Shown here: one piece after another, positions 29,682-62,457 of the stretch
Numbering within the stretch: the stretch's first letter is position 1
Layout: the number at the start of each line of letters is the position of its first letter
Source: Polytrichum commune
Taxonomy: Eukaryota > Streptophyta > Polytrichopsida > Polytrichales > Polytrichaceae
Direction: 5' to 3'
Length of the DNA: 64,000 nucleotides
NCBI GenBank assembly: GCA_950295325.1
Contig: OX485807.1
Location: 14,287,001-14,351,000 of the forward strand
Translations under genes and position numbers: made by a program
The notes under the pieces: generated by a model
Databases searched by the model: none
Told to the model about the DNA's origin: nothing
Seen by the model: the letters and a program-made list of their open reading frames with translations, nothing else

Positions 29682-29947
29682 GCAGTTACAACTAAACCCA
29701 TAGTGGACAAATTTAATCAAGGCTACTTACCAACTTGCGTAATGCTTTATTAGTGGGTGAGGCAAGGCGAGCTTCCACGTATAGGGAGGCTTGGTGAAAG
29801 TTGGTGCTCGGAAATTGGAGTTGGTTAAGAAATGTCAAGGTGTTGCAATTGTGAGTTAGTTGGTGATTTAAGGTTAGCTATCCTTGTGCATCTTTCGAGT
29901 TTATCCTCTAGTCACGGAGATTCTTAGCTCCGTCATTTGTGGAGCTT
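29682..29947 (+). repeat. U1 unit fused to a copy of the PP2C gene 1 leader
   Basis: Positions 29,682-29,770 match U1. The sequence then jumps directly to GAGCTTCCACGTATAGGG and follows 34,925-35,130 collinearly (GGAAATTGGAG-TGG-TAAG, GATTTAAGG-TAGC, CGGAGAT, CATTTGTGGAGC). Compared with the locus at 34,300-34,930, about 600 bp is missing. The junction lies at CGAG, which occurs on both sides of the missing segment in relatives, so a microhomology deletion is the simplest reading. After 29,947 similarity ends. Confidence 0.8.
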
Positions 29948-34235: not shown

Positions 34236-35183
34236 GGGCAACTTAGCCAACACTAATTAAGTTGGTCCCTCACCAACTTGCGCAACGCTTTTGTTGCGTG
34301 CGAGGCAGGGCAAGGCAGGCTGGTAAGTGGTGACGGAGCGACACTGCGAGCAGCTTCCGCAGAAAGAAGAAAAGGAAAGGAAGGAAAGCGAGCAGGAAAG
34401 TTGACCGGGTCAAAGTCTCCCAGGCCGCGACGGCAAGGGAGAGAGCGAGAGAGAAGGAGAAGGAGAGAGAGAGAGAGAGATACTGACTTATGTTAGATGG
34501 ATGGAAGGCAACAACAACTACTTAGCACGGATTCAAGGAAGAAACTTTATGTCAATTCAGTTTTAATCGAGTCAAGTGGTGGTCCCTTGAGTCAATCGTA
34601 AGGAACGCTTTGATCCTTTTGTAAGTAGCAATTTGTTGTTGTAAGTAAAATTGTGGCGATTTTGCTGTGAGTGGGAGTCGTTGCAAAAGCCAAAACGGCA
34701 AAGGGCACACACACAAAGAGCAGCTAAAGCAACCACATATATCCATCCGTATGCACTGTCTCCTTCGTCTCCACCTTCTTCGTCACGGGCCATTTTTTAT
34801 AAAGCAAGCAAGCAAGCAAAAGAAAGAAGAAGGACCTCTCCATCGACGATGAGTCAGAGGAAAGAACAAATGCTCTAGAAGACAGCCTTTTGAGTTTCTC
34901 CTGCCTTGTCCCTCCTGGCCCAGTCGACGAGCTTCCACGTATAGGGCGAGGTTTGGTGGGAGTTGGTGGTTCGGAAATTGGAGCTGGGTAAGGAATTTCG
35001 AGGTGCTGCTGGAGCTGTGACTGTGTGTTGGTGACGATGATTTAAGGCTAGCGATGTCTGTGAATCCTTCGAGTTTTTTTTCCCGAGTTGCGGCGGAGAT
35101 TGCTAGCGGAGATCACCATTTGTGGAGCGGAGTGCGAGGTGGGAAGAATCTGCGCGGTCGAGGTTTGGCCCGTTAACGTGCAG
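34236..35183 (+). promoter_or_regulatory. probable promoter and 5' leader of PP2C gene 1
   Basis: Base composition changes sharply here to GC-richer, CpG-containing sequence with purine tracts and a (GA)n run at 34,459-34,480. Two models fit. In the first, a TATA-like TTTTTATAAAG at 34,792 starts transcription near 34,825. In the second, transcription starts upstream and an intron is removed between a good donor (CTG/GTAAGT, 34,323) and acceptor (CTCCTGGCCCAG, 34,923). A further donor CAG/GTGAGA lies at 35,184. No coding exon is needed here because the phosphatase N-terminus is complete downstream. Confidence 0.45.
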
Positions 35184-35353
35184 GTGAGAGGGTTTTTGTG
35201 TGAATGGCAGATTAGAATAGAAGCTTGTTTCTATTGTTAGAGATGATTTTCTTCGGTGAATTTTAGGAGGTACACGATTTGGCAATTGGTGTAGGAATTC
35301 GCGAGGGAACACTATGTCGATATCGTTGTTGTCCATGGCCAACCTTCCGAATT

Positions 35354-36046
35354 TGCAAATTCTCACAATGGATGGCACAGGCCCCACATATGCTTCTCAG
35401 GTCGGCATGTGTGGTGCATGTGAATAAGCATAGGTCTGGAAGCAATTTGATTCACACATGAGAGCCAAGCAGACTACCACCCAATTCTCGCAAGACAAAG
35501 TGATGATGAACGAAGTTAGCAGAAGTTTGACACAACCGTCGGCCCTTCATTCATTGCCTCATGCTCCTCCTGTCTTCACTTAACAAACAAGCCCATATGA
35601 ATCTAATTTGGCAAATCAAGAAACGCTAAGTACAAAGTCCGGAACCGACCACCCGTGCTTATGATGGGGTTCAAGTAGCAAGCCTCAGGAAAGATTTCTT
35701 AACCGAAATTGAAATTTTAACCCGCCGACTTTGTACTTGGTTATGGGTTCCAGACCGCACCATAAGCACATTGGCCGGTTCCGGACTTTGTACTGAGCGT
35801 TTCTTGAATTAGATTCATATGACTTGTTTGGCAAGTGAAGGCAGGAGGAGCATGAGGCAATGAATGAAGGGCCGACGATTGTGTCAAACTTGTAACTTTG
35901 TTCATCATCACTTTGTGTTGCGAGAATTGGGTGTCAGACTACTTGGCTCTCATGTGTGAATCAAATTGCTTCCAAACCTATGCTTATTCACATGCCGACC
36001 TGAGAAGCATCTGTGGGGCCTGTGCCATCCATTGAGAGAATTTGCA
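35354..36046. repeat. long inverted repeat with about 300-bp arms in the gene 1 leader
   Basis: The left arm, about 35,354-35,671, begins TGCAAATTCTCACAATGG. It is the reverse complement, at roughly 85-90% identity by eye, of the right arm at about 35,747-36,046, which ends CCATTGAGAGAATTTGCA. The spacer is about 75 bp. Mismatches are scattered, with several indels. A transcript would fold into a near-continuous hairpin. It lies between the possible donor at 35,184 and possible acceptor at 36,757. I see no terminal features of a known transposon. Confidence 0.85.
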
Positions 36047-36388
36047 TCTGCTCTTTAAACATCTATCCTGGCAGAGATTCGCTCATTGTATACATTGTGC
36101 ATGTACATTACTTTTGGCGTTGGTTTTTCCTGCTTGAGGCTTAAATCTCTTAGCTCTCCTGGCTTCCTTATGTCGATGGAATTGAGGTCTTAGTATGTCA
36201 CATGTTATACAACAGTTTGCTGGAGTTTTTCCGTTACCCCTGGAGATCAGTAGCAGAACTCAAGAGAAGGATGAACTGGCTTGCTACCATTTGGCTGTTG
36301 CCAGATGTGTGATTTGTTTTCTATTGCATTCTAGCTGTTTTGTACTGAGCAATGTAATTCTAAAAGCTTTGGATGACCTATCTCTCTT

Positions 36389-36472
36389 GTTCTATGGTTC
36401 ACTGGTTACCTTTATCTTCGGAAGTGTTGTTTAAACATTGATACTTACAAGGATACCCAATATGTATATAGG

Positions 36473-36512
<40 letters not shown>

Positions 36513-36804
36513 TTGTGTCTGTTGGGGTATATCTCTGAAGATAGGTACATAGAAGTTGGGGTCTGTAGACTGGAAAAACAGGGGTACTAGACACATTTAG
36601 TGCTGTGCACACAGGTTTTCTGGATGAACTACGTTTCTTGATTCATGTATTATGGTTTTCTGTTAACCTTTTTCCGAAATGTTCCTTGACTGTTGATACT
36701 CACAAGGATATATATCTTTCTATCTATATTTACAACCGATGATCTTGGTGTATGCAGACTGGAAAAAACAGGGTACTAAACACCTTGAGTGCTGTGCACA
36801 GAGG
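36389..36804 (+). repeat. tandem duplication in the gene 1 leader
   Basis: The block 36,389-36,614 is repeated at 36,651-36,804. Shared in order are GGTTACCTTT/GTTAACCTTT, TTGATACT(T/C)ACAAGGATA, AGACTGGAAAAA(A)CAGGG and AGTGCTGTGCACA. The first copy has a (GA)n tract (36,475-36,508) that the second lacks. The second copy keeps TATGCAG/ACTGG, a plausible splice acceptor at 36,757; the first has the weaker TCTGTAG/ACTGG. Confidence 0.75.
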
Positions 36805-36939
36805 TTGTAAAGAGGATGGGTCGGATGCATTGAAGGCGACTTTTGCCACATTAGCATTGTGGTGTCAAGCACATTTTGGAGGATCGCAAAGGGTTAAGTA
36901 ACCTCGTGAAGGTATGAGGGGTGTTTTCGGTGATCGAGA

Positions 36940-37185
36940 ATGGATGAGGATTTGAAACACGAAGACCTGAGATGCTATAATTGGGGGAAGGAATGGATCA
37001 TGATGATGATTCAGAGTAAAGGAAATTCTTCGAGTTGGCAACGAAAATGGGCATGGCGTGTTGGCGCCCTGCAAAGAAACCCTCACAGGTTGGAATACAT
37101 CAGGACAAGAGGGATCGTCAAGATCCACTTCTGTGGTACCAGGATCTGTGTCCACACGCAACTGGGGAATTTTCTTATGCGGTAA
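36940..37185 (+). other. upstream reading frame overlapping the PP2C gene 1 start
   Basis: An ATG at 36,940 opens an 81-codon frame that runs past the phosphatase start at 37,047 in another frame. If the mature leader contains this ATG it would reduce initiation at the main start. This is inferred from position only; the peptide resembles nothing known to me. Confidence 0.35.
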
Positions 37186-38165
37186 TTCAGGCGAACGCGA
37201 TCCTCGAAGACATGAGCCAAGTGGAAACGGGTGTGTTTGGCACATATGTAGGTGTATATGACGGACACGGCGGCCCAGAAGCGTCTCGCAGCATCAGGGA
37301 CACGCTTTACAACCACATCCAAAAATGTAAGGCCGAGGAAGAAGGCATCATGTCGTCTGCCGTGCTTCGCAAAGCGTTCAAAGCGACCGAAGATCGCTTT
37401 TTTGAGATTGTGCGGAAAGGGTGGCTCCTGAAACCACAGCTCGCCGCGACCGGCTCCTGTTGTTTGGCGGGGATGATTTGCGACTCCAATTTGTACATTG
37501 CGAATGTCGGGGACGCGCGCGCAGTGCTCGGGACGTACTCGAAAGAAACCGGATCCGTTGTTGCGAAACAACTATCGAAAGAGCACAACGTGAGTATTCA
37601 GGCGGTACGAGAGGAGTTGATTGCGAAGCATTTTGATGACCCGCAGATCGTGCTGTTGAAACAACAAGTGTGGCGCGTGAAGGGATTGATTCAAGTTTCG
37701 CGCTCAATTGGGGATTTCTACTTGAAGAAACCCGAGTACAACCGCGAGCCGCTCACTGCACGGTTTCGGCTGCCAGAGCCACTCAAAAGACCCGTGATGA
37801 GTGCCGACCCGGAGTGTGCTGTGTATACGCTCGGACCCCGCGACGAGTTCATCGTTTTCGCGTCCGACGGCCTCTGGGAGCATTTGAGCAACAAGGAAGC
37901 GGTGGACATTATTTGCAGCCAACCTCGTCAGGGGATCGCGCGGCGTCTCATTAAAGCGGCGATGCAAGAGGCCGCAAGGAAACGCGAAATGCGATATACA
38001 GATCTGAAAGGGATTGAGCGAGGCATCCGACGGCATTTTCACGACGACATCACTGTCATCGTCGTCTTTCTCGACCCTACTAACAACAGCCATCACAGGA
38101 AAATCCCTTCTCATCACATCTCTGTGAAATGCCCAGTCGACACGCCTCAAAATTCAAGGTCGTAG
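37047..38165 (+). CDS. PP2C-family protein phosphatase, plant clade D type (gene 1)
   Basis: Predicted Mg/Mn-dependent serine/threonine phosphatase of 372 residues. The frame is bounded upstream by an in-frame TAA at 37,017. The first ATG is 37,047, and a second at 37,053 gives the start MACWRP shared with gene 2. Counting from 37,047, motifs in order are ED at 54-55, YDGHGG at 71-76, GSCCLAG at 136-142, [10 protein letters not shown] at 153-162, [14 protein letters not shown] at 210-223, [10 protein letters not shown] at 271-280 and [12 protein letters not shown] at 332-343. The metal-binding acidic residues expected of the family are present (E54, D55, D72, D274, D333 by motif). The stretch PEYNREPL and the arginine-rich RRHFHDDIT are typical of plant clade D, a plasma-membrane-linked group that in Arabidopsis acts on auxin and H+-ATPase signalling; the role here is inferred. 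The frame has no introns, unlike many seed-plant members, and is GC- and CpG-richer than gene 2. Confidence 0.95.
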
Positions 38166-39361
38166 TGTCGCACAGCTCAGCCTCTCTCAGGACATCATTG
38201 TCTTCTTGTATTGGTGTGTTATTGCAGAGTGACTTCTAGTTGGTCAAGACAATTCTGTTCAAGAAACTTAAAACCCCAACAGTTTTTAAGATCCTTCTGG
38301 TTATCTTTCAAGGATGATGAATAAGCCAATTGCCTTCAATATTTTAAACTCTTAAACTGCTTGGAGTCTAGACATGGTTCTCAAGCCGCAAAACAAGTCC
38401 TATCTTTCTCACATTGTCACCAACACTTGAGTGTTAGATAAGAATCTTCTAACCCGGGCACTAGCAGAAGGTACAGCACAACTATGTCATTGTTAGGTTT
38501 GTTTTAGTAGATTCTAACTCTGCTAAGTCGCATAGGATTCTGTAATGAGGATTTGTTTCGACACTCTTTTTGTTCAGGAGCAGTCAAAGGAACAAGCAAA
38601 GGGTGATTTCAGTCGCCCAATATATATTTAAAGACAAGCTCCAGTTGATCATGCACTTTTTCTATTCTCATGTAACACCTGAATCACGAGAGATGACCTG
38701 AAAGTTTCAGAAAGTTCTGTTAAATACTAACTTTCAGTCACTGAATAACAATCCTGTGACCTTTGATTCGGTCTGTTTGTGGCAAAGATATTATGTTACA
38801 GTACAGATTCAAGAGGGTAGTGCCAAAATACTAGTGCCAAAATACAAAAACCCGGTGTCGATGATTTATCTCCAACTCTTCATCAAGAAGACTCTTTGGA
38901 TTAAATACATTCATCACAGTACTGAGGCCCACTGGTACGCAATTGGGTGCTTTACAATTTGCAGATAAACTGAGTGCACCAAATAAACAGGACACAAAGG
39001 TAGACTTCACAATAAGATTGCTAAAAATACAACCATTCAAAACTACAGTAATATCTTGACCTGGAAGTAACAAGAATTCACCTACTTAAGAGATAAACCT
39101 ATACTGAAATTTCGAGATAACCAATTTTGGTCAATCAAAACTTCGCAACACCACAACTCAAATGGTTTCAATGTAATGATGGAAAAAAGACTCACAGGCA
39201 TCTTTTGAGGTTTGATTAACAGAACAGGGTGCAAGGAACTTGGAAGCTAACTTTCACTACAACCTCTTTGCACTAGGGGGAAGGGAAAAGAGAAGAATTC
39301 CTTGTCCTAACCAAGCTGTGTTCTTGAAACCAAAGGTGGCTCTCCAGTGAGTAGAGATACC
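38166..39361. other. region between the two convergent PP2C stop codons
   Basis: This 1.2 kb must hold both 3' untranslated regions. AATAA-like words (ATGAATAAGCC at 38,316 for gene 1; several A/T-rich words on the minus strand) are possible polyadenylation signals, but none stands out. No other gene is seen. Confidence 0.5.
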
Positions 39362-40477
39362 TTAGGAAGAAATGTCAACTCCACCTTTAACAGAACTGTG
39401 ATGAGAGATACTACTACCTTTGCAAAGCAACTTATGGTCTAAGAAAACAACCACCACTGTAATATCATCGTGAAAATGCCGTCGAATGCCTCGCTCAATT
39501 TTCTTGAGATCCGAGTACCGCATCTCACGTTTTTTGGCAGCCTCTTGCAAAGCATATTTGATGAGCCGCCGAGCAATTCCAGCACGAGGATGGTTACGGA
39601 CCATGTCAACAGCCTCCTGGTTACTCAAATGCTCCCACAAGCCATCTGATGCAAAAATAACAAACTCGATATCGGGGCTTAGATGAAGTATATTAATATC
39701 CGGCTCTGCACTCATGACAGGTCTCTTTAGAGGCTCCGCCAACCTGAACCGGCCAATAAGAGGTTCACGATTATACTCTGGCTTCTTCAAGTACACGTCC
39801 CCGATCGAGCGTGACACTTGAATCAGACCCTTAACTCGCCAAACCCCATGTTTCAACATGACAATGTGTGAGTCATCAGGGTGTTGTGCCTCGAGCTCCC
39901 GCCGAACCGACTCAACACTTGCATTGTGTTCTGTAGAGATTTCCGTTGCCATCACAGACTGAGTGTCCGGACAGTAACTGCCAAGGACAGCTCTTGAATC
40001 TCCCAGACTAGCGATGTACAGATTGGAATTCCAAATGACCCCCACTAGGCAGCAGGAGCCTACAGCAGCAATTTGTGGCTTGGTGCTCCAATTGTCTTTC
40101 ACAATTTCCAAAAACCCATCCTCGGTCTGTTGGAATGCTTGGCGAAGGACATCCTCTGACATTTCTCCTGCCTCAGTAGCCAATTTCTGGAGGTGAGGGT
40201 ACAGGGTATCATTAATATAACGTGCTGTGTCAGGGCCTCCATGTCCATCATATATACCAATAAATGTTCCAAAAGGACCAGTCTCCACCTGGCTCATATC
40301 CTCCAGTATCGCATTAGCCTGCACCACAGCAATAGAGAACTCGCCAACCGCATGATCAACCAGATCCCTGTACCAAAGTAACGGATCAAGATTATCTCCA
40401 TTCTCTTCCCCCAGGTGCGTGTACTTCCGCACCGGACGCCAACATGCCATCAACATCTTCATTACCCACTCTACCAT
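39362..40477 (-). CDS. PP2C-family protein phosphatase, plant clade D type (gene 2)
   Basis: Predicted 371-residue Mg/Mn-dependent serine/threonine phosphatase on the minus strand. The frame opens at the ATG at 40,477, just after an in-frame TGA. In-frame ATGs at 40,462, 40,456 and 40,450 are alternatives, the last giving the MACWRP start shared with gene 1. Motifs in order are ED at 59-60, YDGHGG at 76-81, GSCCLVG at 140-146, [10 protein letters not shown] at 157-166, [14 protein letters not shown] at 214-227, [10 protein letters not shown] at 275-284 and [12 protein letters not shown] at 336-347. All expected metal-binding acidic residues are present. The tail HHSSVKGG matches the C-terminal serine/basic motif common in clade D. 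No introns interrupt the frame. It aligns with gene 1 with a single one-residue indel and about 70% identity over residues 141-350. Codon third positions are less GC-rich than in gene 1. Confidence 0.96.
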
Positions 40478-43400
40478 CTCTCATCTGCTCCTCAACCTGT
40501 TTCTTCATCCCTCCAGTCCATTCCCTCTCCTTGTTTCCCTCCTATTTCAGATCCTTGAGCTCTCTTTCCACTTATGCTCTCATGTGAGGGATGATGATGT
40601 CACCTCCCTGCTTGTTGGATCAGATTCTTCACATTATCAAATAAGATTTCCCCCACTGATTCTAAATAAATGCACACACGATCTTGTTCTAATCCTAATT
40701 TACTATACCTCTGCACCAAGTACCTTCTAGGTTGGCCTGCTTAAAATTGCCAAAGTGACACTATCCTTCTCCCTGGTCAACAATGATTCAATCAAGAATC
40801 TTCCAGAATTCAAAATTCTTCAATTTTGTGTGAAGTCATCCTTTGCCTTAAGTCTTTTTACTCCTCTGCATACATCAACCCAGACAGCACGTGTAAGTCA
40901 AATTCCTCTTGATTACCTGCAGAAAACCAACACTTGCAAAAATTAATTTTATTTATTTAAAAAAGCAAGTGATGGAAACTGGTCCTTTCAAGACACAACA
41001 TGATAATATCCCTGTCAAATATCTAATGAACACCACTGACAGCATGCCTCCATTTATAAAAGAAAGGGCCTGACCAAAACTTCTGTGCCCCACCAGGTGC
41101 CTGCACAAAAGCCTACCACAGAAAAAAAACCTCTACACACCAAATTTACCCATCTATAAAGTGCACAATTTAAGATACTTCATCTCCAGATGAGACCTGA
41201 CAGTTTGCATATTTGGAATAAACTTACGCCATTCAAATGTAGAATGATATAGCAAAATCCTGTCTACTTGCACATTACCTCGAAGGTTCTGCAAAAAAAA
41301 CTGTTACTGCTAGCCCCTTCCAAGCATCTGGAGTGACATCCTTCCTATCCGTTAGGCTGGTTGAAATCTGTTGCACCTGCAACACCACCAAAAGTGATTT
41401 CAAGGGATATTGCTACCTATTGGATACAACTTTGCCCAAGTACAAAAACGTTTCATTGACACTGAGTTCAGCCATCGAGGTGCATTCCCTAGAACATCTG
41501 CAAAAGACCATTTTACAACAAACATAGTCAATGGAAAACACAGCTCCCTCTCAAATCCTTATACCTGTTAAAATAGCAGTTAGGGCTGCAAGAGGAGCAA
41601 TCCAATTACTCACCTACAGCAATCATAAAACAAGTGCAGAAGATAATCATCTCTGACATTTTCAGCATTGAGGATTCCGATGGCACCAACAGCTTCTTTT
41701 ATGTAGCGCACACTGAATTCAACCTTCACAAAAGCACCTGCTCAATCTCAGGAATGATCTTTATTTTCGTAGTCATCCAATTCTTCACATCACACTTCAT
41801 CAATAACCCCCAAACAGATTTCTGGTACAGCATGAGAATGAAGTATATACACATGAAACTACAGCTGCACTTTCTCATGCAAGAAACACCACAAACAGAA
41901 CACCTCAACATCCAAGGGCTTGTTAGTATTCTGAAGTGTCATAATAGGTCAATGCACTACTGTATAGTGGTAATCAAAATTTAGTCCAAGCATACACAAA
42001 TTCTTTATTTGCACACACATTCAAGGCAGATTGCGGAGGCTGTAACAATACACCTACAGAGTGTTCAACATGTTCCATCCATCAAGCAGAGGTTACCTAT
42101 TTCCATGCATACTCCTAAGAGAAATAGGGGCTGTTTAGTACATGTAGTAAAAATCTATGCCAATTATTAATGGACAAATATACAGATGACACTCTTTGCA
42201 TTTATCTGCTGCAAGATTATGAAGCTTTTGCAATCCCATGGTACTGTTCAGGTGTCTAACTACAGATGACAATAGGCTCACAAACACTCTCTTTGAAGCC
42301 AACTTGATCGAAACACTGCGGTCTCGTGGACTTTCTAACCATTAGAATGTGAGACTTGCAACTACCTCAGGACCACCCAAACGTCAATAAGAAACACAAG
42401 CCCTCTCTCACTGAACCCTAGTTCTTCTCCAGAGAATTGAACCGTGTCCACTACCTGCAACCTACCAGGTTGGAATCTAAGCTCTATACTATCAATATGG
42501 ACAGGGCTATCTACAAAGAAGTTGTAGGGGCGCACTTGTAGCTCACTAGTTGTTTGTCACATTTGACGCAGTGAGCAGTTGCAGGTGAATGAGCATAAAA
42601 TCTGTATGTAGTCCCTCTCTCATGCTCATCATCCCTGCCTACACAGCAACAAATTTGTGTAGATCCATCCGCACAGGTGCACTTTTGGTGTCTCCAGGTG
42701 TGACAGCATGATGGTCAGCCTGATAAACAACACGTTAGAAAGAAACATCAGCAACTCAACCAATTCTACATCGTAACAAACACAGGCACTGGGAACAACA
42801 TGAAAGATCGGTTATCGGATAGACAAAAGAATAGGCTGAGTTAACGACATGGCATTCATTCAACCGGCCACTTCACATACAATCTTGCTCATACAAACAA
42901 AAGCAGATACCCTTAATGGTGGGCATTATTTGGATCACCAAAACCTACGCAATTTCAGGAAGTTCCGTTCAGCCCACAGCCATCAATCCACCCACTGACC
43001 AACCTGCCTGACACTAAAATGTGCAACCGATTGTTACAGAATTCTGCCACATGATTTCCGCAATAATGATTGCATCATGCATTTTAGCAACTATTCTCTA
43101 CTTAGTATCTATAGTGTGCACACGATACCTATGGGGCTTGGATACTGATATGAAATGGTGATAAATGTCAGAAAACAGAAGCATCTTGCACTTTTCCCCA
43201 TATTGAGGTCCCAAATGAAAAGATGTTTCAAGAAATTAGAGCTTCAATGTCCGTGGTCATGAATTTAAAAACCCAACAAAACACACGTTCGGGTTGGCAC
43301 ATTGCCCCATTCCGAAGCTCTTTGCGCACACTGAGCGTCTGAAACTAAATCCTAGGTTATAAAGCATACACATAGCATTGTCAGCCCTAAAACCTTTCCC

Positions 43401-61755: not shown

Positions 61756-62457
61756 GGGCCAATTCACACACAAGCCAAGAGCCGTGACCATGACTTTGTG
61801 AGAGCCCAAGAGAAAGTGTCCAAAGGCCGTCCCAAGGCACCTCCAAAATCATGTAGTTTGGTCACAGACCTTCAAGTGTAAAGTGAAGTCATATGTGACC
61901 AGACCCTCAACCAAATGTTATTTTGATGAATTTCTATTCATGCAGGTCCTCACGCATGATAAAATAGAATAAATCAACAGTTGTCAACGTTCAGAGTGCC
62001 ATGATCTCTTGGTTTTATGTTAGGCCTACTTCCAAGAGGTGGTTTTAAAATAGTGCAAGTGACCATGGAATAGAATCCATTCGATGCCATGTAGGAATCC
62101 ATGTAGACTTTACATCCATCTTGCATTCGCATAAATTTCTATTCATGTAGGTCCTCACGCATGATAAAATAGAATAAATCAACAGTTGTCAACGTTCAGA
62201 GTGCCATGATCTCTTGGTTTTATGTTAGGCCTACTTCCAAGAGGTGGTTTTAAAATAGTGCAAGTGACCATGGAATAGAATCCATTCGATGCCATGTAGG
62301 AGTCCATGTAGACTTTACATCCATCTTGCATTCGCATACTCAGTTGGTCCCTCAAGTGTAGTGTGAAGCAAACTTGGACCGGCTCCGTCTTGTCCACTCA
62401 TGAGAGTGCTTGAAGTGTAATGGTCACGGGCTCTCAATCTCATGTGTGAAGTGGCCC
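61756..62457. mobile_element. Harbinger/Tourist-like MITE (GGGCCACTTCACAC family), copy 3
   Basis: Ends GGGCCAATTCACACACAAG and CATGTGTGAAGTGGCCC, with a perfect TTA duplication (61753-61755 and 62458-62460). It is inverted relative to 18,643-19,111. Its length of 702 bp includes a 205-bp internal duplication. Confidence 0.9.
61931..62340. repeat. 205-bp tandem duplication inside the MITE
   Basis: TTTCTATTCATG(C/T)AGGTCC begins at 61,931 and again at 62,136. The following about 200 bp are nearly identical, with two visible differences (C/T in ATGCAGG versus ATGTAGG, and GGAATCC versus GGAGTCC). The near identity shows the duplication is recent. Confidence 0.9.

Follow-up and report, generated by a model that had tools for sequence, protein, structure and literature searches.

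A 693-bp inverted repeat lies within the putative leader intron of a PP2C gene of Polytrichum commune, and within the reach of our genome search its two arms are apparently single-copy apart from each other. The best explanation, to which we assign a probability of about 0.45, is a local inverted duplication in the leader intron, the hairpin of which, if transcribed, would be diced to mixed siRNAs. All positions refer to the window, the whole stretch of 64,000 nucleotides that was analysed (contig OX485807.1, positions 14,287,001 to 14,351,000 of the forward strand); the features are collected in Table 1.

Table 1. Features of the hairpin and of the adjoining PP2C genes, in positions of the window
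Feature	Position	Strand	Description
Putative leader intron of PP2C gene 1	35184..36757	+	1,574 bp, GT...AG; predicted from splice-site sequences; holds the hairpin
GAATTTGCA, left copy of 9-bp direct repeat	35349..35357	+	First part of 14-bp palindrome
Left arm of inverted repeat	35354..35670	+	317 bp; from gapped local alignment with the reverse-complemented right arm
Loop between aligned arms	35671..35753	.	83 bp
Right arm of inverted repeat	35754..36046	-	293 bp; same gapped alignment
GAATTTGCA, right copy of 9-bp direct repeat	36038..36046	+	At outer end of right arm
Dispersed two-module repeat	36110..36455	+	About 350 bp, just right of the hairpin; genome search
PP2C gene 1, coding sequence	37047..38162	+	372 aa from ATG, one open frame; Pfam PF00481, E 1.8e-35
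PP2C gene 2, convergent neighbour	39365..40480	-	372-codon open frame, stop to stop; Pfam PF00481, E 2.9e-39

The inverted repeat is real and beyond chance. Gapped local alignment of the left arm against the reverse complement of the right arm gave 273 identities over 293 aligned positions (93.2%), the 20 mismatches being made up of 11 transitions and 9 transversions, with six indels that total 24 bases. Ungapped repeat finding recovered the same inverted repeat as four blocks of 92-97% complementarity, and the longest perfectly paired runs in the hairpin measure 36, 33, 23 and 20 bp. The plus-strand RNA folds with a minimum free energy (MFE) of -496.3 kcal/mol, as compared with a mean of -192.0 (sd 7.4) for 20 dinucleotide shuffles, none of which reached the value of the hairpin; the minus-strand RNA folds at -513.9 kcal/mol. 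With long arms of high identity, a short loop and a single stem-loop, the locus has the structure of an endogenous inverted-repeat (hpRNA) siRNA locus. The outer ends at 35,354 and 36,046 agree exactly with those of the preliminary description, the arm and loop sizes of which (about 318, 300 and 75 bp) were near the measured 317, 293 and 83 bp without being exact; its expectation that transcription would make a long near-perfect hairpin is borne out by the arm identity and the folding energy.

Long-read sequencing is known to produce artefactual palindromes, and the structure could in principle be a fold-back chimera of the assembly. Such an origin is extremely improbable, because a fold-back read should give identical arms, and the two arms observed here, which flank an 83-bp loop, are separated by 20 substitutions and six indels. 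The K2P divergence between the arms amounts to 0.072, so the duplication is not brand new; gene conversion between the arms could feign a younger age, and for this reason no date is put on it. The mutation pattern of the arms was considered as a sign of function and rejected: nine of the 11 transitions keep a G:U pair on a minus-strand transcript and two on the plus strand, an asymmetry that is too weak (p = 0.065) and does not favour the plus strand.

The hairpin was compared with palindromes in 26 pieces of 10 kb, of which 20 were taken from C1 at 3-Mb steps and six made up the first 60 kb of the window. No other palindrome of the set was as strong: the hairpin scored 661 bits versus 309 (L035), 181 (L024) and 177 (L026) for the next three. 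Because of the small sample and of the choice of the window for its hairpin, the comparison shows only that 200 kb of unselected C1 sequence holds no equally strong hairpin, and the background rate of such hairpins rests on the 20 C1 pieces and the window. The runners-up are all multi-copy, with 6,975 (L035), 278 (L026) and 189 (L024) first-look candidates, 40 of each being scored. L035 looks like two diverged, oppositely oriented copies of one dispersed repeat. For L026 and L024, many of the copies can be matched to both strands along their length, in the manner of MITE-like palindromes, and these two (1,850-2,018 in L026; 8,959-9,107 in L024) represent MITE-like multi-copy palindromic families; the L026 palindrome is also matched in part at many sites, where such matches come in groups with spacings of a few hundred bases. 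Palindromic arms are common to these families and to the PP2C-leader hairpin, but L026 and L024 are multi-copy, whereas a second copy of the hairpin was not found.

The preliminary description had called for a genome search for the source of the arms, and this search returned only the two arms and no many-copy foldback family. With the whole 693-bp hairpin as query, the search of the 408-Mb genome (very common words skipped) gave one first-look candidate, in which only the two arms match; with the left arm as query it again gave one candidate, comprising the left arm itself and the right arm and nothing else. Three conserved arm cores (27, 29 and 23 bases), searched with up to 3 mismatches, had one forward and one reverse match each, corresponding to the two arms, and the reversed control patterns of the three cores had 0 matches; the cores sample 79 of the roughly 300 bases of an arm, so that other parts of the arms might still correspond to a short trans target. 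As a control of sensitivity, flanking DNA used as query recovered the neighbouring repeat in dozens of copies, the most diverged of which are 66-67% identical. A profile of both arms run against the fetched sequences found the arms alone, plus two matches at E 2.5 and 6.1. In four frames of the hairpin, Pfam gave no match above cut-off; two matches below it in one frame, DCAF15_WD40 (E 0.0072, 16.5 bits, cut-off 23.9) and an NrdR zinc ribbon (E 0.14), were judged to be due to chance. With no source of the arms found elsewhere in the genome and no Pfam match above cut-off in the four frames, one of the two in-place arms is the likely source of the other.

These results bear on the proposal that the hairpin is a young MIRNA gene giving one or a few discrete miRNAs against a trans target. 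It is accepted that some young MIRNA genes started as long fold-backs produced by inverted duplication: PMC1790633 describes 16 recent MIRNA loci of Arabidopsis for which there is evidence that inverted duplication of protein-coding sequence gave rise to them, and this origin model is revisited in PMC3237417. For the present hairpin such a reading is very unlikely. The derivation from another gene envisaged in the preliminary description was not supported, as the genome searches found no similarity of the arms to a separate protein-coding gene. Moreover, the three cores match nowhere else within 3 mismatches over the 79 arm bases tested, and a helix that is long and near-perfect is judged unfavourable to precise dicing. 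Rfam at its gathering threshold gave no match within the window. Four permissive Rfam matches, considered as a sign of a known RNA family, lay far below cut-off (MIR2606 at 33 of 139.7 bits) and were rejected.

The arm ends read TGCAAATTCTC..., and the left arm end continues outward into a perfect 14-bp palindrome, GAATTTGCAAATTC (35,349-35,362); it is because of this extension that the 9-bp direct repeat GAATTTGCA stands at both ends. Nine base pairs is the length of the target-site duplication of Mutator-like elements, and the hairpin might be a non-autonomous DNA transposon of the foldback or MULE-like type, an orphan that has terminal inverted repeats of about 300 bp and a 9-bp target-site duplication and is now reduced to a single copy. 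The presence of GAATTTGCA at both ends and the fact that the arms fill nearly the whole element speak for this, and so, to some degree, does the finding that the three other palindromes tested are multi-copy. Nevertheless, we regard it as unlikely: the genome searches, with their one candidate, revealed neither multiple copies nor related ends of the kind expected of a foldback, MITE or MULE transposon, and as a target-site duplication GAATTTGCA is asymmetric to the arms, since its left copy shares four bases with the left arm, whereas its right copy falls entirely within the right arm. Such a direct repeat also arises if the five bases left of the left arm chance to complete the palindrome. 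The earlier statement that no transposon ends are apparent stands in that no symmetric target-site duplication and no other copy were found, but it passed over the 9-bp direct repeat.

Local inverted duplication is preferred because neither a separate source of the arms nor another copy was found. Approximately 300 bp of the PP2C leader intron would have been copied in reverse orientation beside itself, and the outer breakpoint of the duplication may have fallen at the small palindrome. Two points count against this origin: the 9-bp direct repeat fits insertion equally well, and all three other palindromes tested in the genome proved to be repeat elements or pairs of them.

The hairpin precedes the first of two convergent PP2C genes (37,047-40,480), each of which has one uninterrupted frame over the domain; the gene 2 product is 67% identical in amino acids to that of gene 1 over residues 2-366. 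A third PP2C gene, on C3, shows 74% amino-acid identity, and the three genes make up the genome matches at E 1e-30 or better. The donor and acceptor proposed earlier for the leader, at 35,184 and 36,757, were both found as sequences, the donor reading CAG/GTGAGAG (the slash marks the splice point) and the acceptor TATGCAG, so that a leader intron of PP2C gene 1 containing the hairpin is plausible. With 34,950 taken as an arbitrary start, the leader contains 53 ATGs unspliced and 12 after the predicted splicing. The leader of the C3 paralogue, considered as a possible empty site, could not be aligned: the coding sequence alone aligns, the best matches elsewhere having E 0.16 or worse, and the 9.9-kb stretch around the paralogue contains no inverted repeat at E 1e-3. 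A partial direct copy of the PP2C leader (29,768-29,902 versus 34,928-35,076, 77%) is located about 5 kb upstream and ends short of the hairpin. A 62-bp direct repeat (84%) occurs at 36,556-36,617 and 36,745-36,806; through it, a second version of the putative acceptor and of the beginning of the next exon stands 189 bp upstream, and an alternative acceptor near 36,568 is therefore possible. Elsewhere in the window, a tandem duplication of 205 bp at 61,929-62,338 is present in two copies with 99% matches.

The two-module repeat just right of the hairpin belongs to a dispersed family, with at least 56 matches at E<=0.001, itself included, among the 40 of 239 candidates scored. The other copies are 66-83% identical, several loci hold more than one of them, and a partial second copy is present at 36,621-36,710. 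Ten other copies were fetched, and the hairpin was absent beside them (about 1.5 kb on each side); 20 of their longer open frames were scanned against Pfam. At five of the ten loci (L011, L013, L014, L015 and L016) a Pfam match of E 1.3e-5 or better was found near the repeat, that of L013 being just under cut-off, and a sixth locus, L019, had a weak match under cut-off (E 0.0032); the remaining four copies had no informative Pfam match nearby. The domains concerned are THF dehydrogenase/cyclohydrolase, DUF7589, TMP-TENI, amino-acid transporter and SecY, one match being weak. The repeat lies on the strand of the frame in six of six informative loci and likewise at PP2C, and a profile of the repeat detected none of its copies in the 200 kb of C1 sequence that had been sampled without selection. 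The family may thus be sense-biased and intron-resident, perhaps introner-like. Because the repeat at 36,110-36,455 lies on the strand of PP2C gene 1, a sense intron there receives indirect support.

If PP2C gene 1 were transcribed through the hairpin, the unspliced transcript or the excised intron would be expected to fold into a hairpin of roughly 270-290 pairs with perfect runs of 20-36 bp, from which Dicer-like enzymes would probably release a mixture of 21-24 nt siRNAs. Three genome matches to the Dicer dimerisation domain (Dicer_dimer) over the Pfam cut-off, on three contigs, suggest that Dicer-type genes exist in the genome. As the searches gave no further copy of the arms, siRNAs, if any, would act on the intron or on the locus itself, and any effect would be local, concerning either the PP2C transcript before splicing or the methylation at the locus. 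Transcription, splicing, dicing and an effect on the phosphatase are all steps that we infer.

The same local inverted duplication might instead have left an inert relic, which would be spliced out with the leader intron and degraded, giving rise to no small RNAs and having no function. The 20 mismatches and six indels by which the arms have moved apart resemble drift, so that selection on the fold is not indicated; in Physcomitrella, moreover, the 132,656 inverted repeats counted (median arm identity 79%) far outnumber the top 100 small-RNA loci analysed in the same study (PMC2600652). On the other hand, perfect runs of up to 36 bp in a very strong fold would be a good Dicer substrate upon transcription, and the hairpin is the strongest palindrome of the 26 pieces checked. 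We consider the relic rather unlikely, the preferred reading being a hairpin that would yield siRNAs if transcribed.

Structures of this kind are known from other plants. According to PMC2600652, heterogeneous inverted-repeat loci of moss produce RNAs of about 21 nt and extend from precise miRNAs at one end to, at the other, repeats that vary in size, are processed chaotically and have functions given as unknown; those of Physcomitrella, part of the Pp21SR class, are likewise single-locus inverted repeats and potential stem-loop precursors. The rice long hairpins MIR3863 and MIR2284, as described in PMC3661559, lie in introns of protein-coding genes, as the present one putatively does, and yield many different small RNAs, mainly 24-nt for MIR3863 and mainly 21/22-nt for MIR2284; they are longer (1,147 and 1,681 bp versus 693 bp) and belong to introns 3 and 5. 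Arabidopsis IR71, an endogenous inverted repeat that gives intramolecular dsRNA like that envisaged here, is cut by DCL2 and DCL3, with DCL4 in a secondary role and DCL1 contributing (PMC12825306). IR71 forms dsRNA of about 3 kb and is backed by small-RNA and mutant data, whereas the present hairpin, in contrast to the Physcomitrella, rice and Arabidopsis examples, is known from sequence alone, and it differs from the Pp21SR loci also in its position in a putative gene leader intron. Long inverted repeat variation has furthermore been made responsible for several small-RNA QTL hotspots in rice, as stated in PMC7649420. Our literature searches by structure, gene or kind of genome returned no report of the present locus, which is not a claim that none is in print.

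An effect of such a hairpin on its host is exemplified by miR838 in intron 14 of Arabidopsis DCL1, dicing of which leads to non-productive host fragments (PMC12825306). The likeness to the present case lies in the position of the hairpin in an intron and in the damage that its dicing can do to the host transcript, but miR838 is a miRNA precursor (mirtron) inside the Dicer gene itself. By analogy, the PP2C hairpin might operate in cis as a dose-control switch, in which dicing would compete with splicing of the leader intron and the dicing rate would set the amount of surviving PP2C mRNA. This would be a counterpart of miR838/DCL1 on the siRNA scale, but one that concerns a signalling phosphatase and involves no trans target; we hold it to be quite improbable.

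The hairpin is therefore a plausible, putative small-RNA precursor and a strong example of an already known kind of structure. Arms without any other copy set in-place inverted duplication apart from the gene-capture and MITE routes. If small RNAs are made from the hairpin, the locus would offer a clean test of the feedback of an intron hairpin on its own host gene, because we found no further locus at which these small RNAs would be produced or would act. Fold-backs that are single-copy and lie inside genes provide the material out of which small-RNA loci can develop.
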